The translations under genes and the position numbers were made by a program. Below, piece after piece: positions 2,488-11,147 of a stretch of 12,233 nt of DNA. This stretch comes from a bacterium (GTDB lineage Bacteria; UBP15; UBA6099; JAJRTR01). Within the stretch, counting starts at the first letter, position 1, and every line of letters begins with the position of its first letter. The notes beneath the pieces are model-generated. The model had not been told where the DNA came from. It saw only the letters and a list, made by a program, of their open reading frames with translations, and made no database searches. The stretch lies in the NCBI GenBank assembly GCA_024278215.1, contig JAJRTR010000059.1, forward strand, positions 1 to 12,233. The letters are read 5' to 3'.

Positions 2488-2696
2488 CTCCGGAACTGTT
2501 CCAGAAGCTCAAACGATACCTGTGGGTATTTGCTTCGCCTATGGGAGCCGGAACATGGGATGAACATGGTTCGTTTCGCAATCCACACAAGGGAAATCGT
2601 CGGTATCTCTATCGGTGGGATGCTAAACCGAAATCTGACGTTTGGCGGCCGATGGAATATCAGGAAGCGTTGTTGATATGGCCTATAAGAGATTAA
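2484..2696 (+). CDS. Small protein of unknown function preceding the variable-repeat cassettes
   Basis: The 70-residue product (MTPELFQKLKRYLWVF at the N-terminus, then a Trp/Tyr/Arg-rich part with GNRRYLYRWDA) is not a family I recognise. The start is supported by GGAGGAG about five bases before ATG 2484. The frame could extend upstream to 2433, but that region is the methyltransferase-tail repeat. Its last 19 bases overlap the ATG (2678) of the three-repeat gene in the -1 frame, so translation of the two is probably coupled. By position it stands to the first variable repeat as the FGE-like scaffold at 3205 does to the fourth, but it shows no FGE motifs. Confidence 0.65.
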   Translation: MTPELFQKLKRYLWVFASPMGAGTWDEHGSFRNPHKGNRRYLYRWDAKPKSDVWRPMEYQEALLIWPIRD

Positions 2697-3232
2697 GGAA
2701 TAGCATACTGCTGCGCGGCGGGAGTTGGTTTAACGACGGGTCTCTCTGTTGCATAGTAAATCGTCTCGGCAATGATCCGTCGAGACGTAGCAGATATTCC
2801 GGATTCCGAATCGTTCGAAAAGCAAACCCGCCAAGCAATAAAGGAGAAAAGATGAAATTACAGGTGAGCCGAGGCGGGAACTGGGTCAACTTCGCGGCCT
2901 ACTGTCGTGTGGGGAAACGTTACTACGACGCCCCGTCGAGCCGCTATAACGGAGTTGGGTTCCGTGTTGTACGGAATGCAAAACCAATAAGTCATGAAGG
3001 AGAAAAGATGAACTTACAGGTGAGACGCGGAGGGACCTGGTTCTACCACGCGCCCTACTGTCGCGTGGCTGGTCGGCACTACATCGCTCCGTCGTGCTGT
3101 TACGAAACCACCGGCTTCCGTGTTGTACGGAAGGCACAATCTATTGAACCCAGTCGTGATCTAATAATCACGATTGAAATAAAACTAACCCAGGAGGGTG
3201 GAGAATGGACAAAGACAATCTCGTTAAGGTAA
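2678..3232 (+). CDS. Protein of three tandem hypervariable FGE/C-type-lectin C-terminal repeats
   Basis: The 184-residue product is a string of three 35-residue units at residues 13-47, 65-99 and 117-151, all with RGG(S/N/T)W at the start, a Cys in the middle, Pro at position 19 of the unit and GFR(I/V)VR at the end. This is the last segment of the FGE-sulfatase (SUMF1-type C-type lectin) fold, the segment diversified in many DGR target proteins. No scaffold precedes any unit, so these are isolated variable blocks. The units repeat every 156 bases with no frame break. ATG 2678 is used because the frame upstream to 2642 lies wholly inside the previous gene. ATGs at 2852 and 3008, each five bases after AGGAG, could give shorter one- and two-unit products. 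The C-terminal 33 residues after the last unit look random and overlap the scaffold gene at 3205. Confidence 0.75.
   Translation: MAYKRLRNSILLRGGSWFNDGSLCCIVNRLGNDPSRRSRYSGFRIVRKANPPSNKGEKMKLQVSRGGNWVNFAAYCRVGKRYYDAPSSRYNGVGFRVVRNAKPISHEGEKMNLQVRRGGTWFYHAPYCRVAGRHYIAPSCCYETTGFRVVRKAQSIEPSRDLIITIEIKLTQEGGEWTKTISLR
2714..2818 (+). repeat. Variable repeat 1 (VR1)
   Basis: 35 codons from CGC-GGC-GGG to the CGA of GFRIVR. The core reads RGGSWFNDG, then CCIVNR, DPSRRS and GFRIVR. The unit has the same length as the other four. Its leader MAYKRLRNSIL differs from those of VR4 and VR5. It is the most diverged copy at normally invariant positions (CC where others have CR) and at its 3' edge (GTTCGAAA where VR2, VR3 and VR5 have GTACGGAA). 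Confidence 0.7.
2842..2854 (+). promoter_or_regulatory. Internal ribosome binding site and ATG of VR2
   Basis: AAGGAG (2841-2846) is followed by AAAAG and ATG (2852), an ideal SD spacing, in frame with and inside the three-repeat gene. The same arrangement occurs before VR3. Confidence 0.6.
2870..2974 (+). repeat. Variable repeat 2 (VR2)
   Basis: 35 codons with RGGNWVNFAAYCRVGKR in the first half and GFRVVR at the end. The codons at variable positions are AAC, GTC, AAC, TTC, TAC, TAC, TAC, GAC, AGC, TAT and AAC, almost all ending in C or T. The 3' edge TTCCGTGTTGTACGGAA is identical to that of VR3. The conserved edge is where the initiation site for template-directed mutation would lie in a DGR target. 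Confidence 0.75.
2997..3010 (+). promoter_or_regulatory. Internal ribosome binding site and ATG of VR3
   Basis: AAGGAG (2997-3002) is followed by AAAAG and ATG (3008). The 14 bases AAGGAGAAAAGATG are identical to those before VR2, so the translation signal was duplicated along with the repeat. Confidence 0.6.
3026..3130 (+). repeat. Variable repeat 3 (VR3)
   Basis: 35 codons with RGGTWFYHAPYCRVAGR and GFRVVR. It begins exactly 156 bases after VR2, which begins exactly 156 bases after VR1. The variable codons include ACC, TTC, TAC, CAC, CAC, ATC, TGC and ACC. Silent differences from VR2 at Arg, Gly and Ala codons show that the two are not fresh copies of one template. Confidence 0.75.
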
Positions 3233-3810
3233 CGAAGGGGACTTTCCAGATGGGCTCGGACGACGGGCACCAGGACGAACGGCCTGTTCATGAAGTCGAA
3301 ATAGCCCGCGACTTTTTGATTTCAAAGTATCCGACGACGTTCGAGCAGTTTGACGCATTCTGCGAAGCAACCGGAAGAAACAAGCCCAACGACAGCGATT
3401 GGGGCCGTGGCGAAAGACCGGCAATCAACGTCAACTGGTATGACGCTATCGCTTACTGCAACTGGCTGAGTGAGAAGGAAGGTCTCACGCCCTGCTACAC
3501 GATCGACGGAGAGCAGGTGGAGTGTGATTTCGACGCCAACGGCTATCGACTCCCGACCGAGGAAGAGTGGGAATACGCCGCTCGCGGAGGGACGGAATCA
3601 CAGGGCTATAAATACGCCGGCTCGAACAGCCTCGAAGACGTGGGCTGGTACTGGGGAAACTCAGGCGGCCGGACGCATCCAGTCGGCGAGAAAAAGCCGA
3701 ACGAACTCGGAATCCACGACATGAGCGGGAACGTGTGGGAATGGTGTTGGGACGAGTACGACTCGAAGGCATATGAGAAAAAATGGAAACGAAATATAAT
3801 CGTCGGATAA
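3205..3810 (+). CDS. FGE-sulfatase (SUMF1/C-type-lectin) scaffold lacking its C-terminal variable block
   Basis: The 201-residue product carries the canonical FGE-sulfatase order of motifs: GTFQMGS (12-18), RPVHEV (26-31), PAINVNWYDAIAYCNWLS (72-89), GYRLPTEEEWEYAARGG (113-129), HPVGEKKPNELG (158-169) and MSGNVWEWCWDEYDS (173-187). Family members continue directly into RVLRGGSW...GFRVVR. Here the frame ends instead with WKRNIIVG and TAA, and the missing block (VR4) begins in the -1 frame from ATG 3783. The body is a non-catalytic lectin-type scaffold in DGR targets and an oxidase in true formylglycine-generating enzymes; the active-site cysteine region of true enzymes lies in the part absent here. 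The start is fixed by AGGAGG (3192-3197) seven bases before the ATG. A probable role is display of a variable ligand-binding surface, for example on phage tail or host surface, which is inference. Confidence 0.85.
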   Translation: MDKDNLVKVTKGTFQMGSDDGHQDERPVHEVEIARDFLISKYPTTFEQFDAFCEATGRNKPNDSDWGRGERPAINVNWYDAIAYCNWLSEKEGLTPCYTIDGEQVECDFDANGYRLPTEEEWEYAARGGTESQGYKYAGSNSLEDVGWYWGNSGGRTHPVGEKKPNELGIHDMSGNVWEWCWDEYDSKAYEKKWKRNIIVG

Positions 3811-4178
3811 TGCGCGGCGGGGGCGGGGACAGCTACGCGACATTCTCTTGCGTGGCACATCGCGACTACGACAATCCGTCGCGCTGCAGCGGCATCATCG
3901 GATTCCGGGTAGTACGCAAAGAGGAAGGGGGGGAAAGGAAAGTAAAAATCGACAGGAATGGGGATTTATGGATCGAACGCAGGGGGAAACTCGTCCGACA
4001 AAGCTGCATGCGGGCAACCACAATGGGGACATGTGGGGAACATTGCCCGATGTTTCATTATTGGGAAAGAGATGGTCTTTGGTATGTCCGCTTATGTACC
4101 CAGCGCGAGTGGGACTGGGTCTTCGAGCAATTTGAAATCGAGGACCGATCTGGCTTAACAGATGAAAACGAGATATAA
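3783..4178 (+). CDS. VR4 block fused to a cysteine-rich small phage domain
   Basis: The 131-residue product starts METKYNRRIM and then has the variable block at residues 11-45, ending GFRVVR. Residues about 53-131 are a second unit (KVKIDRNGDLWIERRGKL, then Cys75, Cys84, His87, Cys88, Cys105). This resembles small stand-alone phage proteins of the style 'xIDxxGxLWIERxG...C...CGxxCPxF', probably metal-binding. No ATG, GTG or TTG stands at the beginning of that second unit, although a purine-rich GGAAGGGGGGGAAAGGAAAG precedes it, so a once separate gene seems to have lost its start and become fused. The first 28 bases overlap the FGE scaffold in the -1 frame. Joined to the scaffold by a -1 slip at the A-run 3778-3783, it would restore a normal FGE C-terminus. 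Confidence 0.65.
   Translation: METKYNRRIMRGGGGDSYATFSCVAHRDYDNPSRCSGIIGFRVVRKEEGGERKVKIDRNGDLWIERRGKLVRQSCMRATTMGTCGEHCPMFHYWERDGLWYVRLCTQREWDWVFEQFEIEDRSGLTDENEI
3813..3917 (+). repeat. Variable repeat 4 (VR4)
   Basis: 35 codons from CGC-GGC-GGG to the CGC of GFRVVR. The normally invariant Trp of RGGSW is Gly (GGG), giving RGGGGDSY. The variable codons (GGC, GAC, AGC, TAC, TTC, GAC, TAC, GAC, AAT, AGC, GGC, ATC, ATC) mostly end in C or T. The leader bases 3794-3809 are identical to 4173-4188 before VR5. Confidence 0.75.
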
Positions 4179-4350
4179 TCGTCGGATACTACGTGGCGGA
4201 AGCTGGAGCTACTACTTAATCTACTGTCGCTTAGCTTACCGCACCGCAGTTATTCCGCCGGGGCGTTACTACAACGTCGGCTTTCGCTTCGTACGGAATA
4301 CTGATGGCTCGGTGATGAGAATGGGGGTTGATGATGCGCCAGATAATTGA
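4162..4350 (+). CDS. Stand-alone VR5 cassette, variable C-type-lectin C-terminal block
   Basis: The 62-residue product MKTRYNRRIL... consists almost only of the variable block (residues 11-45: RGGSWSYYLIYCRLAYR ... GFRFVR) and a 17-residue tail. Its first ten residues match those of the VR4 gene in eight positions, so the two cassettes share a duplicated leader. Its ATG lies 17 bases before the end of the preceding gene in a +1 frame, and its TGA (4348-4350) overlaps the membrane-protein gene that follows. Whether a 62-residue lectin fragment folds alone is doubtful. It may be an inactive reserve cassette, a C-terminus reached by frame change, or a DGR target remnant. Confidence 0.65.
   Translation: MKTRYNRRILRGGSWSYYLIYCRLAYRTAVIPPGRYYNVGFRFVRNTDGSVMRMGVDDAPDN
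4192..4296 (+). repeat. Variable repeat 5 (VR5)
   Basis: 35 codons from CGT-GGC-GGA to the CGG of GFRFVR. The variable codons are AGC, TAC, TAC, ATC, TAC, TAC, ACC, TAC, TAC, AAC and GTC. The unit has strong AAY-derived appearance and many tyrosines, which is typical of DGR-selected surfaces. The 3' edge GTACGGAA matches VR2 and VR3. Confidence 0.75.
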
Positions 4351-4702
4351 TCTTGCAAAAAAGCATAGACGCAAAGTAGTCGCCGGGGTACTTTCGACCG
4401 TTGCAATCGCGGCTGTGGTATCGGGCGTATCCGTCCTGCTTTACCAGCACAAAGACATTTCGCGTCTGGAACGAGAGGTGCGAGAGAAGCGAGCTGAGAT
4501 TGAATCGATGCAAACATATATGCGCTTCTTAATCGACCGTTCGAAGGAAGACCGCGCCGCTCTGACGGCGGAACGGGAGATGCGGCAATTTTTCGAAACG
4601 AATATCCAACACGCAGCGAAAGCTTTGGATTCCGCCCTCGATGATTACTACACGGCACAGTGGCGGATATATGAGCTTGAAGAAGAGCTGAAGAAAGAGT
4701 AG
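4331..4702 (+). CDS. Membrane-anchored coiled-coil protein, possibly inner-membrane spanin-like
   Basis: The 123-residue product has a basic N-terminus (KKHRRK, 10-15), one hydrophobic helix (about 16-38, VVAGVLSTVAIAAVVSGVSV), and then a long charged coiled coil (about 43-123, with heptad-like Leu/Glu/Arg pattern and a C-terminal ELEEELKK). This N-in, single-pass plus coiled-coil layout is that of Rz-type inner spanins, but no endolysin, holin or outer spanin lies beside it, so another role is possible. TTG 4328, ATG 4331 and ATG 4334 are in frame. GGGGG at 4323-4327 best fits 4334 by spacing. It overlaps the VR5 cassette by about 20 bases. Confidence 0.6.
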   Translation: MMRQIIDLAKKHRRKVVAGVLSTVAIAAVVSGVSVLLYQHKDISRLEREVREKRAEIESMQTYMRFLIDRSKEDRAALTAEREMRQFFETNIQHAAKALDSALDDYYTAQWRIYELEEELKKE

Positions 4703-4715
4703 AATCAGAATTGGA

Positions 4716-5192
4716 ATGGCTATCAAGCTATCAGATATAAAGCTGAACGATCAAAACCCACGCAAAGCGACCGACAGGCAGATAGAAAAGCTCGCGAAGT
4801 CAATATCTGAATTCCCAAAAATGATGGCGTTGCGCCCGATCATAGTCGATGATGATAACGTCGTCCTCGCCGGGAACATGCGCTATCGTGCTTTGCGACT
4901 GCTTGGCAAAACAGAGATTCCTAATGCATGGGTCAAAAAAGCATCGACGTTAACTGATGAAGAGCGGCGGCGGCTTGTGATCGTTGACAATGCCAATTTC
5001 GTGGAATGGGATTATGATTCGTTGGGGCAATGGGATATTGGCGAACTCGGCAATTGGGGGGTTGGCGAGAATGTAATATCAAACATTGATATTCCTAAGT
5101 TTGAACCCGTAGATGAATCAGAAGTCCCAGATTTTATGCGTGAAAAAAAGCTTATGATTTGTCCTGAGTGCGGGCACGAATGGGCGGTTTAG
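4716..5192 (+). CDS. ParB/sulfiredoxin-like domain protein with C-terminal zinc knuckle
   Basis: The 158-residue product begins with a ParB-nuclease-like domain: IKLNDQNPRK (8-17), an alpha-helical stretch to about 35, RPIIVDDDNVVLAGNMRYRAL (40-60) with the family's AGNxRxxA motif, and a basic helix with EERRRLVIVDN. A short tail carries CPECGH (149-154), a likely half zinc site. In phages this domain occurs both in DNA-binding proteins and beside DNA-modification enzymes. It is followed with a short overlap by a Mom-like gene, a pairing that suggests a role in DNA modification rather than plasmid partition, which is inference. No centromere-like repeats are seen. Confidence 0.8.
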   Translation: MAIKLSDIKLNDQNPRKATDRQIEKLAKSISEFPKMMALRPIIVDDDNVVLAGNMRYRALRLLGKTEIPNAWVKKASTLTDEERRRLVIVDNANFVEWDYDSLGQWDIGELGNWGVGENVISNIDIPKFEPVDESEVPDFMREKKLMICPECGHEWAV

Positions 5193-5800
5193 TTATTGAT
5201 TGGTGTAATTTCTCCGCAGCGAAATATGCGGTTATGCGCTGGCATTATTCAAAGCGCATGCCTGCTCCGCCACGCGCATGCATTGGCGTGTGGGAAAATA
5301 ATATATTCATTGGCACAATTATTTTTTCCCGTGGCGCGTCGGCTGGTATTGGATCGCCGTATAAATTATCAAATACAGAATGTGTAGAATTGACACGAGT
5401 TGCACTTGGGAAGCACGAGGAACAAGTGTCGCGAATATTATCAATTGCCATCAAAAAACTGAAAAGGAAATGCCCTCCCTTGCGATTGATCGTGTCATAT
5501 GCTGACCCGTGGCAGGGACATATGGGGAAGATTTATCAAGCCGGCAACTGGATATATACCGGACAGACGGCCCCGGCAATTGTATATTTCGACGAATCAG
5601 GGAAAGAAATTCATAATAGATCAATCGGTGTGACAGGATATAGAAAACAATTCGGCGTTATGAAAAAGACGCGAACGCCTGATGAATTGCAAAAGACTGT
5701 TAGGCCGCCGAAATACAGATATCTATATCCGCTTGATTCTGCAATGCGAAAACGTATATTATTACTTTCGAGGCCGTATCCGTCTGCGCACGTGGTGTAA
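5180..5800 (+). CDS. mom: Mom-like adenine hypermodification protein
   Basis: The 206-residue product resembles the Mom family of phage Mu and relatives, which turns adenine in DNA into N6-carbamoylmethyladenine and blocks many restriction enzymes. Seen are WHYSKRMP (21-28), GVWENNIFIGTIIFSRGAS (36-54), PYKLSNTECVELTRVAL (60-76), VSRILSIAIKKLK (83-95) and RLIVSYADPWQGHMGKIYQ (102-120) followed by AGNWIYTG (121-128). These match a GNAT-like acyltransferase fold. ATG 5180 is preferred over GTG 5168; both overlap the ParB-like gene, whose stop is at 5190. The last 15 bases lie inside the tRNA gene that follows. Mom in Mu is toxic and tightly regulated, but no regulator (Com) is evident here. Confidence 0.8.
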   Translation: MGGLVIDWCNFSAAKYAVMRWHYSKRMPAPPRACIGVWENNIFIGTIIFSRGASAGIGSPYKLSNTECVELTRVALGKHEEQVSRILSIAIKKLKRKCPPLRLIVSYADPWQGHMGKIYQAGNWIYTGQTAPAIVYFDESGKEIHNRSIGVTGYRKQFGVMKKTRTPDELQKTVRPPKYRYLYPLDSAMRKRILLLSRPYPSAHVV

Positions 5801-7375: not shown

Positions 7376-7848
7376 AATCGATTCCCGCAATGATTGCCGA
7401 CGGAATTAGAACACGAATACATAGATGGGCCTATACAAAAGCAACAACGCAGATCAGATTGACCGACCCTGGCGTGCGCAAGGTCTTTGGGATTGACCTC
7501 GGCGACCAAGAGGAATTGACCGACCCGTTCAAACAACTCCCGATTGTGCGTGCAGCGATAAGCGCAAAGGCAGCGAACATCGCGCAGGTGCCATTTGTGA
7601 TTCGGCAGCGTGGGGCGGACGAGCCGGTGCCCGAGAACCATCCGCTCGTGGAATTGTTCAACGATATCAATCCGTATCTCTCGAAATATGATTTTTTCGA
7701 ACTGATAGTGACATACATGGACGGATGGGGAGACGCGCCGATTTTTCTTGAACGCGAGTTTGAAAGAGCGCCTGGAATCCCACAGTTTTTGTGGATGGAA
7801 TTCCCGACAATGGTCCGCGCAGCAAAGTACCAACAGAGGTTCGTGTGA
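7372..7848 (+). CDS. Portal protein, N-terminal part before an in-frame TGA
   Basis: The first 158 residues show the N-terminal portion of an HK97-type portal: DPFKQLPIVRAAISAKAANI (52-71), VPFVIR (74-79), HPLVELFNDINPYLSKYDF, and a segment with GDAPIFLERE. This is the pattern by which portals form the ring through which DNA passes. Translation would stop at TGA 7846-7848. The same frame continues without break into the rest of the portal from 7849. On its own this fragment would not make a portal, so a working phage needs read-through, recoding or an error in the sequence to be corrected. Confidence 0.85.
   Translation: MKSIPAMIADGIRTRIHRWAYTKATTQIRLTDPGVRKVFGIDLGDQEELTDPFKQLPIVRAAISAKAANIAQVPFVIRQRGADEPVPENHPLVELFNDINPYLSKYDFFELIVTYMDGWGDAPIFLEREFERAPGIPQFLWMEFPTMVRAAKYQQRFV
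7846..7848 (+). other. In-frame TGA interrupting the portal gene
   Basis: The frame reads ...QQRFV-TGA-WLVRRGKQQEF... Homology-like portal sequence lies on both sides in the same frame, so no insertion or deletion is needed. Many portals have a Gly-Trp pair at this strand, and GGA is one base from TGA, so Gly is the simplest ancestral residue, though Trp or Arg (also one base away) are possible. Confidence 0.85.
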
Positions 7849-7851
7849 TGG

Positions 7852-9393
7852 TTGGTGCGGCGCGGGAAGCAACAAGAATTTTTTCTGCCTGAAGAAACAA
7901 TCCTGATTAAATATCCGAACCCATATGACAAGTTGAGGGGGTTATCGAAGCTGTCTGCGTTGGAGATTACCAACAAGGCCGATTGGGGCGCGATCAAGTC
8001 GAACCAGATGATTTTCGAAAATGACATCGGAGCAGGTGTTGTTTTTTCGGCACCTGAGGGCGTCGAGCTGGAAGATGCCGATTACAAGCGGATAGAACAG
8101 GAGCTCATCAAAAAGCGCGAAGGCGCGAAGTATCATCACAAGGCTATGATCCTCTCCGGCGGAATGAAGGCCGACGACCTGCGAAAGACGAATCGTGACA
8201 TGCAGTATATCGAATTGCGGAAGTTCAACCGCGAAGACGTATCGATGGTCATGAAGGTTCCGAAGCCTGAGCTTGAATTGTACGAGGATATTAATTACGC
8301 GACGGCGCTTAGCTCCGATCGGTCGTTCTGGAAAAAAACACTGATACCGCTTATGCGGAAGATCGAAGACGCGCTCAACACGCAGTTTTTCTACCGGCGT
8401 GGGTACGAGTGTTATTTCGATGTAGCGCAGATCGACGTACTCAATAGCGAGGTGCTCGAAAAGGCCGATACTGCGCAAAAATATATCGCAATCGGATATA
8501 CGCTGAACCAAGTCAATGAGCGTCTAGGGCTCGGGTTCCCTGAGGTCCCCTGGGGGGATGATCCGTTCGCAGGAACAGCACTACTGCCTGAGCCGCAGGT
8601 GCGCGACGTGACGCCGAAAGCGCCAGAATCCATAATGAGCGAAGTGCATCGTAAGCAGTGGCTGGACATCGTGCAAAAAATCCTGCCCGAGGTAGGGCGC
8701 GCAAGTAAAAGCGTAAAAGCCTATTTCAAAAAGATCGAAAGAAAAATCCTGCGCGAAATGATCAAGCGCGTCGATGGGCGCGTGGTTGAGATCAAGGCGC
8801 CGACTGATGATTACGAATGGATTGAAGATCTGTTTGAAGAATCGGAATTGAAACGGATCATCGAAGCGCATCATCGTGCAGCGGCGAAAACCGGCATCGT
8901 GTCGATAGATACTCCGGCAAAAGTGGACCCAGACCCTATCGTCAGGGCTGTCCTGGCTGCGCATGGCGGGGACAAGATAGCCGATATCAATCGGAGAGCG
9001 AGCCGATACGTAATTGAAAAGTTGCGCAGCATCCTCGACCAGGCGATTGCCGATGGTGTGCCTGAAGAAGAAGTGGCGCAGAGAATAGCGACCGGATTGA
9101 AATCGAGCATGGCGAACATTTCGCGTCGCGCGCGGACAATCGCGCGGACAGAAATACACGGCGCGTATTCGCAGGGGCGACACGAAACGATGATGCAGAC
9201 GGCGCCCGTGCGGCTGCGGTGGCTCAGTACGCATGATGACGCTGTGCGTGAGAGCCACGAAATGATGGACGGCGAAGTCACCGACCCGGGAGAGATGTTT
9301 TCAAATGGGCTGCGATTTCCGCTCGATCCGAACGCCACAGACCCGGGGGAAGTGATAAATTGTCGGTGCGCCGTGATAGCGGAATATGAATAG
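7852..9393 (+). CDS. Portal protein, C-terminal part, fused to MuF/SPP1 gp7-like head morphogenesis domain
   Basis: This 513-residue frame continues the portal in the same frame after TGA 7846-7848. Residues about 1-260 read as portal (ETILIKYPNPYDKLRGLSKL; GAGVVFSAPEG; the mid-portal MQYIELRKFNREDVSMVMKVP; and DRSFWKKTLIPLMRKIEDAL). Residues about 400-513 read as the MuF/SPP1 gp7 domain (PF04233-type): RARTIARTEIHGAYSQGR, RWLSTHDDAVRESHEMMDG and the terminal NCRCAVIAEYE. MuF domains join portal to head and may carry effector domains. Together with 7372-7848 the full gene would be 673 codons with TGA at codon 159. The only internal start near the break is TTG 7852 or GTG 7855, with no good SD, so independent initiation is unlikely. 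Confidence 0.88.
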   Translation: MVRRGKQQEFFLPEETILIKYPNPYDKLRGLSKLSALEITNKADWGAIKSNQMIFENDIGAGVVFSAPEGVELEDADYKRIEQELIKKREGAKYHHKAMILSGGMKADDLRKTNRDMQYIELRKFNREDVSMVMKVPKPELELYEDINYATALSSDRSFWKKTLIPLMRKIEDALNTQFFYRRGYECYFDVAQIDVLNSEVLEKADTAQKYIAIGYTLNQVNERLGLGFPEVPWGDDPFAGTALLPEPQVRDVTPKAPESIMSEVHRKQWLDIVQKILPEVGRASKSVKAYFKKIERKILREMIKRVDGRVVEIKAPTDDYEWIEDLFEESELKRIIEAHHRAAAKTGIVSIDTPAKVDPDPIVRAVLAAHGGDKIADINRRASRYVIEKLRSILDQAIADGVPEEEVAQRIATGLKSSMANISRRARTIARTEIHGAYSQGRHETMMQTAPVRLRWLSTHDDAVRESHEMMDGEVTDPGEMFSNGLRFPLDPNATDPGEVINCRCAVIAEYE

Positions 9394-9402
9394 GAGATGA
9401 TG

Positions 9403-10128
9403 ATGGATAAATTGATAGCGGTATCGTACGGAATCAAAACCGTCGAGGCTAAAGGCAAAACACTCTATCGTGCGACTGCGAACACAAAGGCAATTGACCG
9501 TGACAATGAAATCATCCTGCCGTCAGGCTGCACGAATCTGAAACAATGGCTCGCAACGAACCCAGTGATTTTTTACGGGCATGCGTGGATGTCCTGGGAT
9601 GGCGAATCTGAGGAGAAATTGCCGATCGGCAGGGCGGAGAAAGCGCACCGAAGAAAATCAGACGGAGCTATTGAGATTGCCTGGTGGTTCCACGAGGGTG
9701 ATTTTGCGCAGAAGGTGAAATATTTAGTGGACGAAACAGTGCTCAATGCAACGAGTATCGGATTTATCGCTAAGGAATGGGAAAGCAATCCGGAAGTGAT
9801 CGAGGAAATCATTGAGTCTGAAGGCATCGAACAGGAGAAGAAGGCAAAACTTCCGGGAGCGGTCTGCACGAAATGGGAATTATTAGAATTGTCTGTCGTG
9901 TCGATCCCGTCGAACAGGGAAGCGGAAATCCTGCGGTCGCTTGAGCCTGAAAGCGCGCTTGCGTTGGCGCTCAAGTCCGTGCACTTGCCGGCAGGCAAGC
10001 GAAGTGATACAATGTCCAATAGCGAAGATGTAGAAGAGGTGGAAGCAGACGCGACGCCGCCTCAACGCTGCAAGACGTTCGCAGAAAAATATCAGGGGGT
10101 GTTTCAATGGACAAGCTTGAAGCACTGA
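9403..10128 (+). CDS. Prohead (HK97-type, U35) serine protease
   Basis: The protease cleaves scaffold and capsid N-termini during maturation of the prohead. Seen are the N-terminal IDRDNEIILPSG (31-42), the catalytic His in NPVIFYGHAW (53-62, His60), LPIGRAE (73-79), the second catalytic-site strand LNATSIGF (114-121, Ser118) and ELLELSVVSIPSNREA near residues 162-177. The C-terminal part is acidic, as in scaffold-like tails. ATG 9403 is chosen because AGGAG (9392-9396) is six bases away; ATGs at 9397 and 9400 are in frame. The TGA stop (10126-10128) lies 19 bases after the start of the capsid gene, so the two overlap. Length, about 241 residues, is normal. Confidence 0.92.
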   Translation: MDKLIAVSYGIKTVEAKGKTLYRATANTKAIDRDNEIILPSGCTNLKQWLATNPVIFYGHAWMSWDGESEEKLPIGRAEKAHRRKSDGAIEIAWWFHEGDFAQKVKYLVDETVLNATSIGFIAKEWESNPEVIEEIIESEGIEQEKKAKLPGAVCTKWELLELSVVSIPSNREAEILRSLEPESALALALKSVHLPAGKRSDTMSNSEDVEEVEADATPPQRCKTFAEKYQGVFQWTSLKH

Positions 10129-11147
10129 AAAAGAATGCCGAACTGCTCAAAAAATTGATCGAGCAGACCGAGGACGAGCAGACGGCGAAAGCATATTCGG
10201 AGCAGTACGACGAATGTCTCCGTGAAATCGCGCGAGAAGAAGCGCGCGAAGAGCAGAAGACGGAGATCAAGGCGCTCAAAGACGAAATCGCCGCGATGAA
10301 ATCGTCTCAAGCAAAAATCTTCGACGTTATCGAGGCGGGGACGATTACCGTCGGTGCCGGGAAGACGGAGTCCTATAAGGGCTTCAATCTGAACCGCGAA
10401 GTGAAGCTCGCCGGTATGCGGGCGATCAAACATCAGGGGATCATCAACCGGAGGTTCGCTGCGGATCCTGAACTCGCTATGAATTTGTCGAAAATGTTCA
10501 TCGACAAGTACGTCGAGGCGAGCCGGAAATCGCCGTTGGAAATCGCAAGAGCAAAAGCGGCGATGCAGGAAGGGACCGATCCCGAAGGTGGATATCTCAC
10601 GCCGACCGAACAGCGATTCGAGCTCGTCGCGTATGCGCGCGAGGCTTCTATCGCGCTGCAACGGGCGACGCACATCTCGATGACCTCCGACGTGATGACC
10701 ATTCCGACCGAGTTGACCAAAGTCTCGGTAGCTGTCACGGCCGAAGAGGCGCAGGCGACCGAGACCGAGCCGACGTTCGACCAGGTAACGTTGACCGCGA
10801 AGCGGTACGACGGATACGGAAAAACGTCGAACGAACTCCTCGAAGACGCGGCAGTCAACGGCGGAATCGTAGGACTGCTCCTCGACCAATTCATCGAGGC
10901 GACCGGCAAAGCGATCGATTCGGTCGTGTTCACGGCTCCTGGGGATCCTGCGTCGGGTATTTTCTCGGCAAAAGCCGGCGCGTCGGTCGTGTTCGATTCC
11001 GGCTCGACCGCCTTCTCGGAAATCATCGAGGCCGACCTCCGCGAAGCGATTCGCAAGGTGAAAAAGGAATACAGGGACGGCGCCGTGTGGATGATGCACG
11101 ACGAGCTCCTGTGGGACTACATCCGTGGACTGAAAGACTCGAACTGA
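10107..11147 (+). CDS. Major capsid protein (HK97 fold), up to an in-frame TGA
   Basis: 346 residues before the TGA at 11145-11147. Residues about 1-75 are a charged coiled coil that could act as the delta/scaffold domain, to be cut by the protease encoded just before. The HK97 fold follows: GGYLTPTEQRFELVAYAREA near 160-180, ISMTSDVMTIPTELTKVSV, an acidic ETEPTFDQVTLTAKRYDGY segment with a strong E-loop/P-domain look, TSNELLEDAAV, and the late VWMMHDELLWDYIRGLKDSN. The family motif at that point is typically followed by Gly and an aromatic/Leu stretch (DSNGNYLF-like), and here TGA replaces the glycine. The start at 10107 has GGGGGT and ATG within ten bases. Confidence 0.93.
   Translation: MDKLEALKKNAELLKKLIEQTEDEQTAKAYSEQYDECLREIAREEAREEQKTEIKALKDEIAAMKSSQAKIFDVIEAGTITVGAGKTESYKGFNLNREVKLAGMRAIKHQGIINRRFAADPELAMNLSKMFIDKYVEASRKSPLEIARAKAAMQEGTDPEGGYLTPTEQRFELVAYAREASIALQRATHISMTSDVMTIPTELTKVSVAVTAEEAQATETEPTFDQVTLTAKRYDGYGKTSNELLEDAAVNGGIVGLLLDQFIEATGKAIDSVVFTAPGDPASGIFSAKAGASVVFDSGSTAFSEIIEADLREAIRKVKKEYRDGAVWMMHDELLWDYIRGLKDSN
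11145..11147 (+). other. In-frame TGA interrupting the major capsid gene
   Basis: The frame reads ...LKDSN-TGA-NYLFAEARSGG... In HK97-type capsids the motif 'KDxNGxYL' has a conserved glycine at this place; GGA to TGA is one base change. Codon number 347. The frame is unbroken on both sides. Confidence 0.88.

Follow-up and report, generated by a model that had tools for sequence, protein, structure and literature searches.

The 12,233-bp stretch of DNA analysed here (hereafter the window) carries five hypervariable blocks of 35 codons, which resemble the variable C-termini of FGE/C-type-lectin targets of diversity-generating retroelements (DGRs). This raises the question of what protein, or proteins, such a series of blocks encodes, and of how their diversity is generated. 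To our knowledge, DGR targets are whole genes, with one variable protein per gene. Multi-target DGRs are known, with two targets in approximately 13% of cassettes and a maximum of eight, reached in two bacteria (PMC10743442).

Organization of the window locus

The window corresponds to a whole contig (C29), open at both ends, from a MAG of 4.55 Mb and 207 contigs. The five blocks lie, gapless, at the positions and with the exact codons given by the initial annotation (Table 1), and their assignment as FGE/lectin C-termini also holds, as all five match an FGE C-terminal block profile (i-E 1e-10 to 1e-14) built from 12 loci plus the window, the window blocks themselves being among its input. What had been missed is that a single truncated scaffold is present and that each block is a separate cassette for it. 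This scaffold matches Pfam FGE-sulfatase (3e-46) over profile positions 3-197 of 255, has the DGR target TvpA as its best solved match (8e-33), and stops at 3808-3810, ahead of the block that it would need; scaffold and blocks are both FGE, in separate reading frames. Further, blocks 1 to 3 share an open frame (2681-3232), in which AAGGAGAAAAGATG precedes both block 2 and block 3. The window holds a single scaffold ending before RGGSW, accompanied by five cassettes, and the early description of an unusual multi-block layout, with most blocks devoid of a scaffold, was right (five blocks, one scaffold). We hold this reading of the anatomy and class of the locus with high confidence.

Table 1. 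Coordinates of the features of the locus (positions in the window)
Feature	Coordinates	Strand	Description
Cassette 1	2681..2818	+	ATG near 2681; block 2714-2818; leader MAYKRLRNSILL
Cassette 2	2852..2974	+	SD AAAGGAG, ATG 2852; block 2870-2974; open frame shared by cassettes 1-3
Cassette 3	3008..3130	+	SD GAAGGAG, ATG 3008; block 3026-3130; frame continues to stop at 3232
FGE scaffold	3205..3810	+	SD AGGAGG, ATG 3205; ends WEWCWDEYDSKAYEKKWKRNIIVG*; lacks C-terminal block
GAG AAA AAA TGG, A6 run	3775..3786	+	Candidate -1 slip site, non-canonical; weak
TAATG, stop-start coupling	3808..3812	+	Scaffold stop overlaps the ATG directly before block 4
Cassette 4	3783..3917	+	ATG 3783 or 3810; block 3813-3917
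Cassette 5	4162..4350	+	ATG 4162; block 4192-4296; leader near-identical to cassette 4 leader

Sequence variation among the five blocks

Fixed positions number 10-12, and 4-9 of the fixed codons differ synonymously per pair; the occurrence of such silent differences in all block pairs indicates that the protein motif is under selection. Third-base conservation was sought in every pair of window blocks and found in none (9-20 third-base differences per pair). This bears out the early claim that no single recent template served the five blocks, as third positions differ as much as elsewhere, and a single-template DGR for the window blocks was ruled out by these differences. The block of cassette 4 lacks the motif Trp and Cys.

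A bias towards codons ending in C or T at variable positions had also been put forward. The bias is present, with a strength that depends on the positions counted: at 15 positions picked post hoc, 31 of 37 free-choice residues end in C/T versus 16.8 expected (p ~8e-7); counting all positions with at least three residues gives 36 of 56 (p = 0.002), and columns picked from 77 family blocks give 19 of 30 (p = 0.04). As fixed columns are C/T-biased too in most other arrays, codon bias alone is weak evidence, and Y-ending codons were discarded as proof of a DGR.

Recurrence of the layout in other phages

A DNA-pattern scan of IMG/VR for SD, ATG, short leader, RGGxW and GFR, together with a second scan that added more loci, revealed scaffold-less minigenes in other phages, with 14 other viral contigs carrying 2-16 such cassettes each. 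According to the scaffold and block profiles, exactly one scaffold (S) lies in or beside the array wherever the array contig extends far enough, with 1-16 cassettes per scaffold across the array loci whose contig includes it: 3 + S + 2 in the window, 3 + S + 6 in L108 and L122 (L104 being similar), 1 + S + 4 in L086, 3 + S + 3 in L109, 4 + S in L118, 3 + S in L125, 1 + S + 1 in L096, S + 2 in L137, and 16 blocks plus scaffold on the L106 contig. The scaffold was not seen in L088 and L127, whose arrays lie at or near the contig end, and is cut in L084. It stops or leaves frame just past WEWC in the window, L024, L086, L096, L104, L106, L108, L109, L118, L122, L125 and L137; in seven contigs, the scaffold-adjacent block is fused in frame ahead of the scaffold. 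An in-frame ATG is present at most 25 codons before the block in 63 of 77 cases, and an SD of -5 kcal or better in 39 of 77. Close bacterial FGE genes (L053-L065) are single intact targets, and the FGE genes of Microcystis phages are intact, with a variable region that changes fast between LMM01 and MaMV-DC, third bases included.

The layout of one scaffold and many cassettes is apparently recurrent and undescribed, and the window is possibly a decayed member of such a system. Judging from this arrangement of sequences, the cassettes probably serve the scaffold. Among the related phages L104, L108 and L122 (L180, L177, L179), some cassettes are identical and others different, as if whole cassettes had been swapped.

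Mutation pattern in related loci

The initial annotation had proposed comparing relatives for changes at codon positions derived from adenine. Orthologous cassettes indeed differ almost solely at positions 1 and 2. Of the strain pairs, L118/L125 is the best, with scaffold and flanks 99% identical and four versus three cassettes; two orthologous blocks here carry 13 and 16 base changes, distributed as 6, 7, 0 and 9, 7, 0 over codon positions 1, 2 and 3 (0 of 29 at position 3 in total); blocks inside one genome differ at all codon positions. Further block pairs, taken within arrays, between contigs, and from loci with nearly identical scaffolds, gave 10, 11, 1 (L088), 14, 7, 1 (L084) and 8, 8, 1 (L086), whereas scaffolds differ chiefly at third positions (e.g., 14, 9, 33). 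Change at positions 1 and 2 with third bases kept requires a template, distinct for each block lineage. Variation confined to adenine-derived positions was found in the relatives; in the window, the NNY bias coexists with varying third bases. A DGR-type origin of the cassette variation is highly likely for the relatives, and for the window we lean towards it. The proposed DGR-target character of the FGE C-termini stands, while recent DGR action on the five window copies finds no support.

Search for the DGR machinery

A genome search for a reverse transcriptase (RT), Avd and template had been suggested, and the absence of RT and template, combined with variation not focused on A-derived positions, had been named as evidence against a DGR. 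Absence was found, beside the focused variation of the relatives: no DGR-type RT was detected in the window contig or its MAG, where the phage genome is incomplete, and an N-rich template query over the MAG had no matches other than the window blocks and FGE genes of the host. The sole RVT_1 match in the MAG is a group-II-like RT, with 236 bits to group_II_RT_mat and a partial/weak GIIM maturase domain, while a true DGR RT scores 124 bits with the same model. A bAvd search gave no match in the MAG, nor in any control genome. In a host FGE gene (G000:C113, 32711-33904), a single frame of 1082 aa includes two C-terminal blocks that look variable (RGGSWDVNSGNLRASNRNNHNP...).

Among the array contigs, RVT_1 is absent from 14 of 14 (770 kb in total, several of 60-129 kb), and no N-rich template was found in 12; several of these contigs are fragments, beyond whose ends an RT could be located. 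Of 6 classic DGR contigs that the scan also yielded, all 6 have an RT, and any RT within 4 kb of a scaffold has an ordinary, intact FGE gene as its neighbour. Known DGRs with FGE/C-lectin targets (Treponema denticola TvpA; Thiohalocapsa, PMC10907252; Acaryochloris pREC1, L197) have in common with the arrays the FGE-fold scaffold, the C-terminal variable region RGGxW...GFR and, regarding the relatives, variation at codon positions 1 and 2. The arrays differ in the lack of RT and template on their contigs, and in having a truncated scaffold with several separate variable cassettes.

An ordinary DGR locus, with RT and template(s) in the missing part of the phage genome and the five blocks as plain multiple targets, would be compatible with such a short contig with open ends, with the TvpA-like scaffold and the NNY bias, and with the up to eight targets known for one bacterial DGR (PMC10743442). 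It is nonetheless unlikely, as the RT is missing even from the longest array contigs, no template was found in 12 of these contigs, and the window blocks have no common template. Moreover, known targets are whole genes, not cassettes devoid of a scaffold. As neither RT nor template was found on the array contigs, machinery acting in trans is the simplest inference, and we give supply in trans a slight preference. The Acaryochloris marina plasmid pREC1 (L197), whose classic DGR has FGE targets, comes with RT and Avd annotations and with an Asn-rich template near 4013; it is a candidate host-type donor.

Phage context of the window

The window contains a tailed-phage fragment, with genes for methyltransferases, ParB, Mom, terminases, portal, protease and capsid. 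The portal gene is split by one in-frame TGA (7846-7848), as is the major capsid gene (11145-11147), where the TGA aligns with Gly in L069; since other window genes terminate in TGA, a defective prophage is likelier than recoding, and the window prophage may be defective. The FGE array is absent from all phage relatives identified through terminase or capsid (L025, L069-L071), and no second copy was found in 7 genomes of the rare host phylum.

The window could represent a real system that has become a fossil. If instead the FGE C-terminal fragments were functionless leftovers of repeated partial duplication in a decaying prophage, this would explain these TGA codons, the loss of Trp and Cys in block 4 and the lack of a common template; however, such an origin is improbable, given that fixed residues were retained through silent change in all block pairs, that three blocks share an uninterrupted frame, and that unrelated phages share the layout, in which the motifs are intact and ATG/SD are present.

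Possible frameshifting at the scaffold-cassette junctions

In the window, block 4 is in frame -1 relative to the scaffold (scaffold in frame 1, cassette 4 in frame 0). Overlap between these frames is limited to 3777-3807, with the A6 run at its start (junction sequence GAGAAAAAATGG). No canonical X_XXY_YYZ heptamer was found in register at this junction, G_AAA_AAA at 3777-3783 being one A short; the upstream SD stimulator is at background level (-3.3 kcal), and RNA structure downstream of the A6 run is no better than in shuffles. We regard -1 frameshifting in the window as a weakly supported possibility.

The strongest case of predicted serial frameshift signals is L024 (128.9 kb; locus 8001-10862). 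Its scaffold frame continues as a 1073-aa reading frame, in which the last cassette lies, while 12 cassettes lie in the -1 frame, each with its own stop and each behind CCCTTT, always in register. There are 12 CCCTTT sites in the tail and 0 on the other strand, and the SD-like sequence upstream of the sites averages -11.7 versus -6.2 kcal. An FGE with a meaningless repetitive tail was ruled out for L024 by these 12 in-register sites, one per cassette, with SD-like sequence upstream. No other IMG/VR contig matched a junction of this type. A serine-recombinase-like gene is located at 13792-14385 of L024.

A search with the L106 scaffold yielded 78 loci. Seventeen scaffold loci (16 contigs) have at least two downstream cassettes; the first cassette is in the -1 frame in all of them, and the second in the scaffold frame in all except L205. 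In that locus (4001-5500), five -1-frame cassettes follow five in-register GGGAAAG and the next cassette is in the scaffold frame; a further cassette precedes them (3830), and another has an ATG of its own (5418). GGGAAAG accounts for 11 of the 17 junction heptamers, AAAAAAG for 1 and GGGGGAG, which is non-canonical, for 5; an SD is located roughly 10 nt upstream of them (mean -9.3 versus -3.3 kcal). Canonical heptamers are present at 12 of the 17 junctions versus 3.1 expected from codon shuffling (9 of 14 versus 2.4 for unique junctions), and in 4 of 68 single intact loci. In a study that measured heptamers in E. coli (PMC4066793), both C_CCU_UUC and G_GGA_AAG are named among the strong frameshifters, with C_CCU_UUC listed as high-level. 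The junctions of the relatives resemble those of programmed -1 frameshifting (X_XXZ_ZZN plus upstream SD), with GGGAAAG, AAAAAAG or CCCTTTN in register and an SD upstream, but the arrays use their sites serially (5 in L205, 12 in L024) toward alternative hypervariable C-termini, and the window has no canonical heptamer. We read this as a putative display system of many tips on one scaffold, expressed partly via programmed -1 frameshifting.

Proposed mechanism and predicted structure

On balance, we favour an explanation in which a hypervariable C-type-lectin (FGE-fold) binding protein would be encoded in pieces: an invariant scaffold, short of its last ~40 residues, plus five C-terminal cassettes that are alternatives to one another and carry the variable face. 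Each cassette would complete the scaffold fold, either as a chain made separately or fused to it (in frame, or through a -1 frameshift), and a single scaffold would thereby acquire several binding specificities. The cassettes would owe their diversity to adenine-directed rewriting of the DGR type, with templates specific to each block and with the machinery most likely acting in trans (from the host or a co-resident element), or else their variable regions would be exchanged with host DGR genes; in the window, the DGR-type activity would be old or ceased. More tentatively, this may be a phage display locus whose tips are chosen at translation, through a -1 site per cassette or as small chains, and rewritten by a DGR borrowed from the host. 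If so, a single mRNA would give rise to a mixed population of binding specificities, with up to 16 variable tips per constant scaffold versus the one variable protein per gene of known DGR targets. In the relatives, the choice of tip appears to fall to the ribosomes, which would shift frame at up to 12 serial sites and read the remaining array as linker; one genotype would in this way yield a mixed repertoire of receptor binding at the level of translation. The consistent absence of RT and template raises the further claim that phages exploit a DGR not encoded by themselves. No publication relevantly joining ribosomal frameshifting with DGRs was found in the literature, chiefly open, to which this novelty is relative.

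Shufflons and phage tail-fibre C-terminal switching systems consist of one constant part and several alternative C-termini. This feature is shared with the arrays, but the window cassettes are in direct orientation, with no inverted repeats >30 nt in the window, and are apparently translated in place. Silent-cassette antigenic variation, with unexpressed donors recombining into the scaffold-adjacent cassette, would account for the varying number and order of cassettes between strains (L118/L125) and for the mosaics L104/L108/L122, but is very unlikely, as silent donors would have no need of the ATG that most cassettes possess, often together with an SD, or of the frameshift sites behind which others sit.

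Regarding the favoured arrangement of scaffold and completing cassettes, AlphaFold predicted the scaffold with a pLDDT of ~90 and structural matches to FGE, PvdO and TvpA. In a cassette-scaffold fusion, with few cassette sequences in the alignment, the cassette was not placed (pLDDT ~30), nor did two predictions favour or disfavour a reading of the cassette-first fusions as circularly permuted FGE folds; we infer the probable manner of contact from the known FGE fold. Downstream of block 4, the frame of cassette 4 continues for ~85 residues (3918-4178; KVKIDRNGDLWIERRGKLVRQ...), resembling a separate small phage protein.
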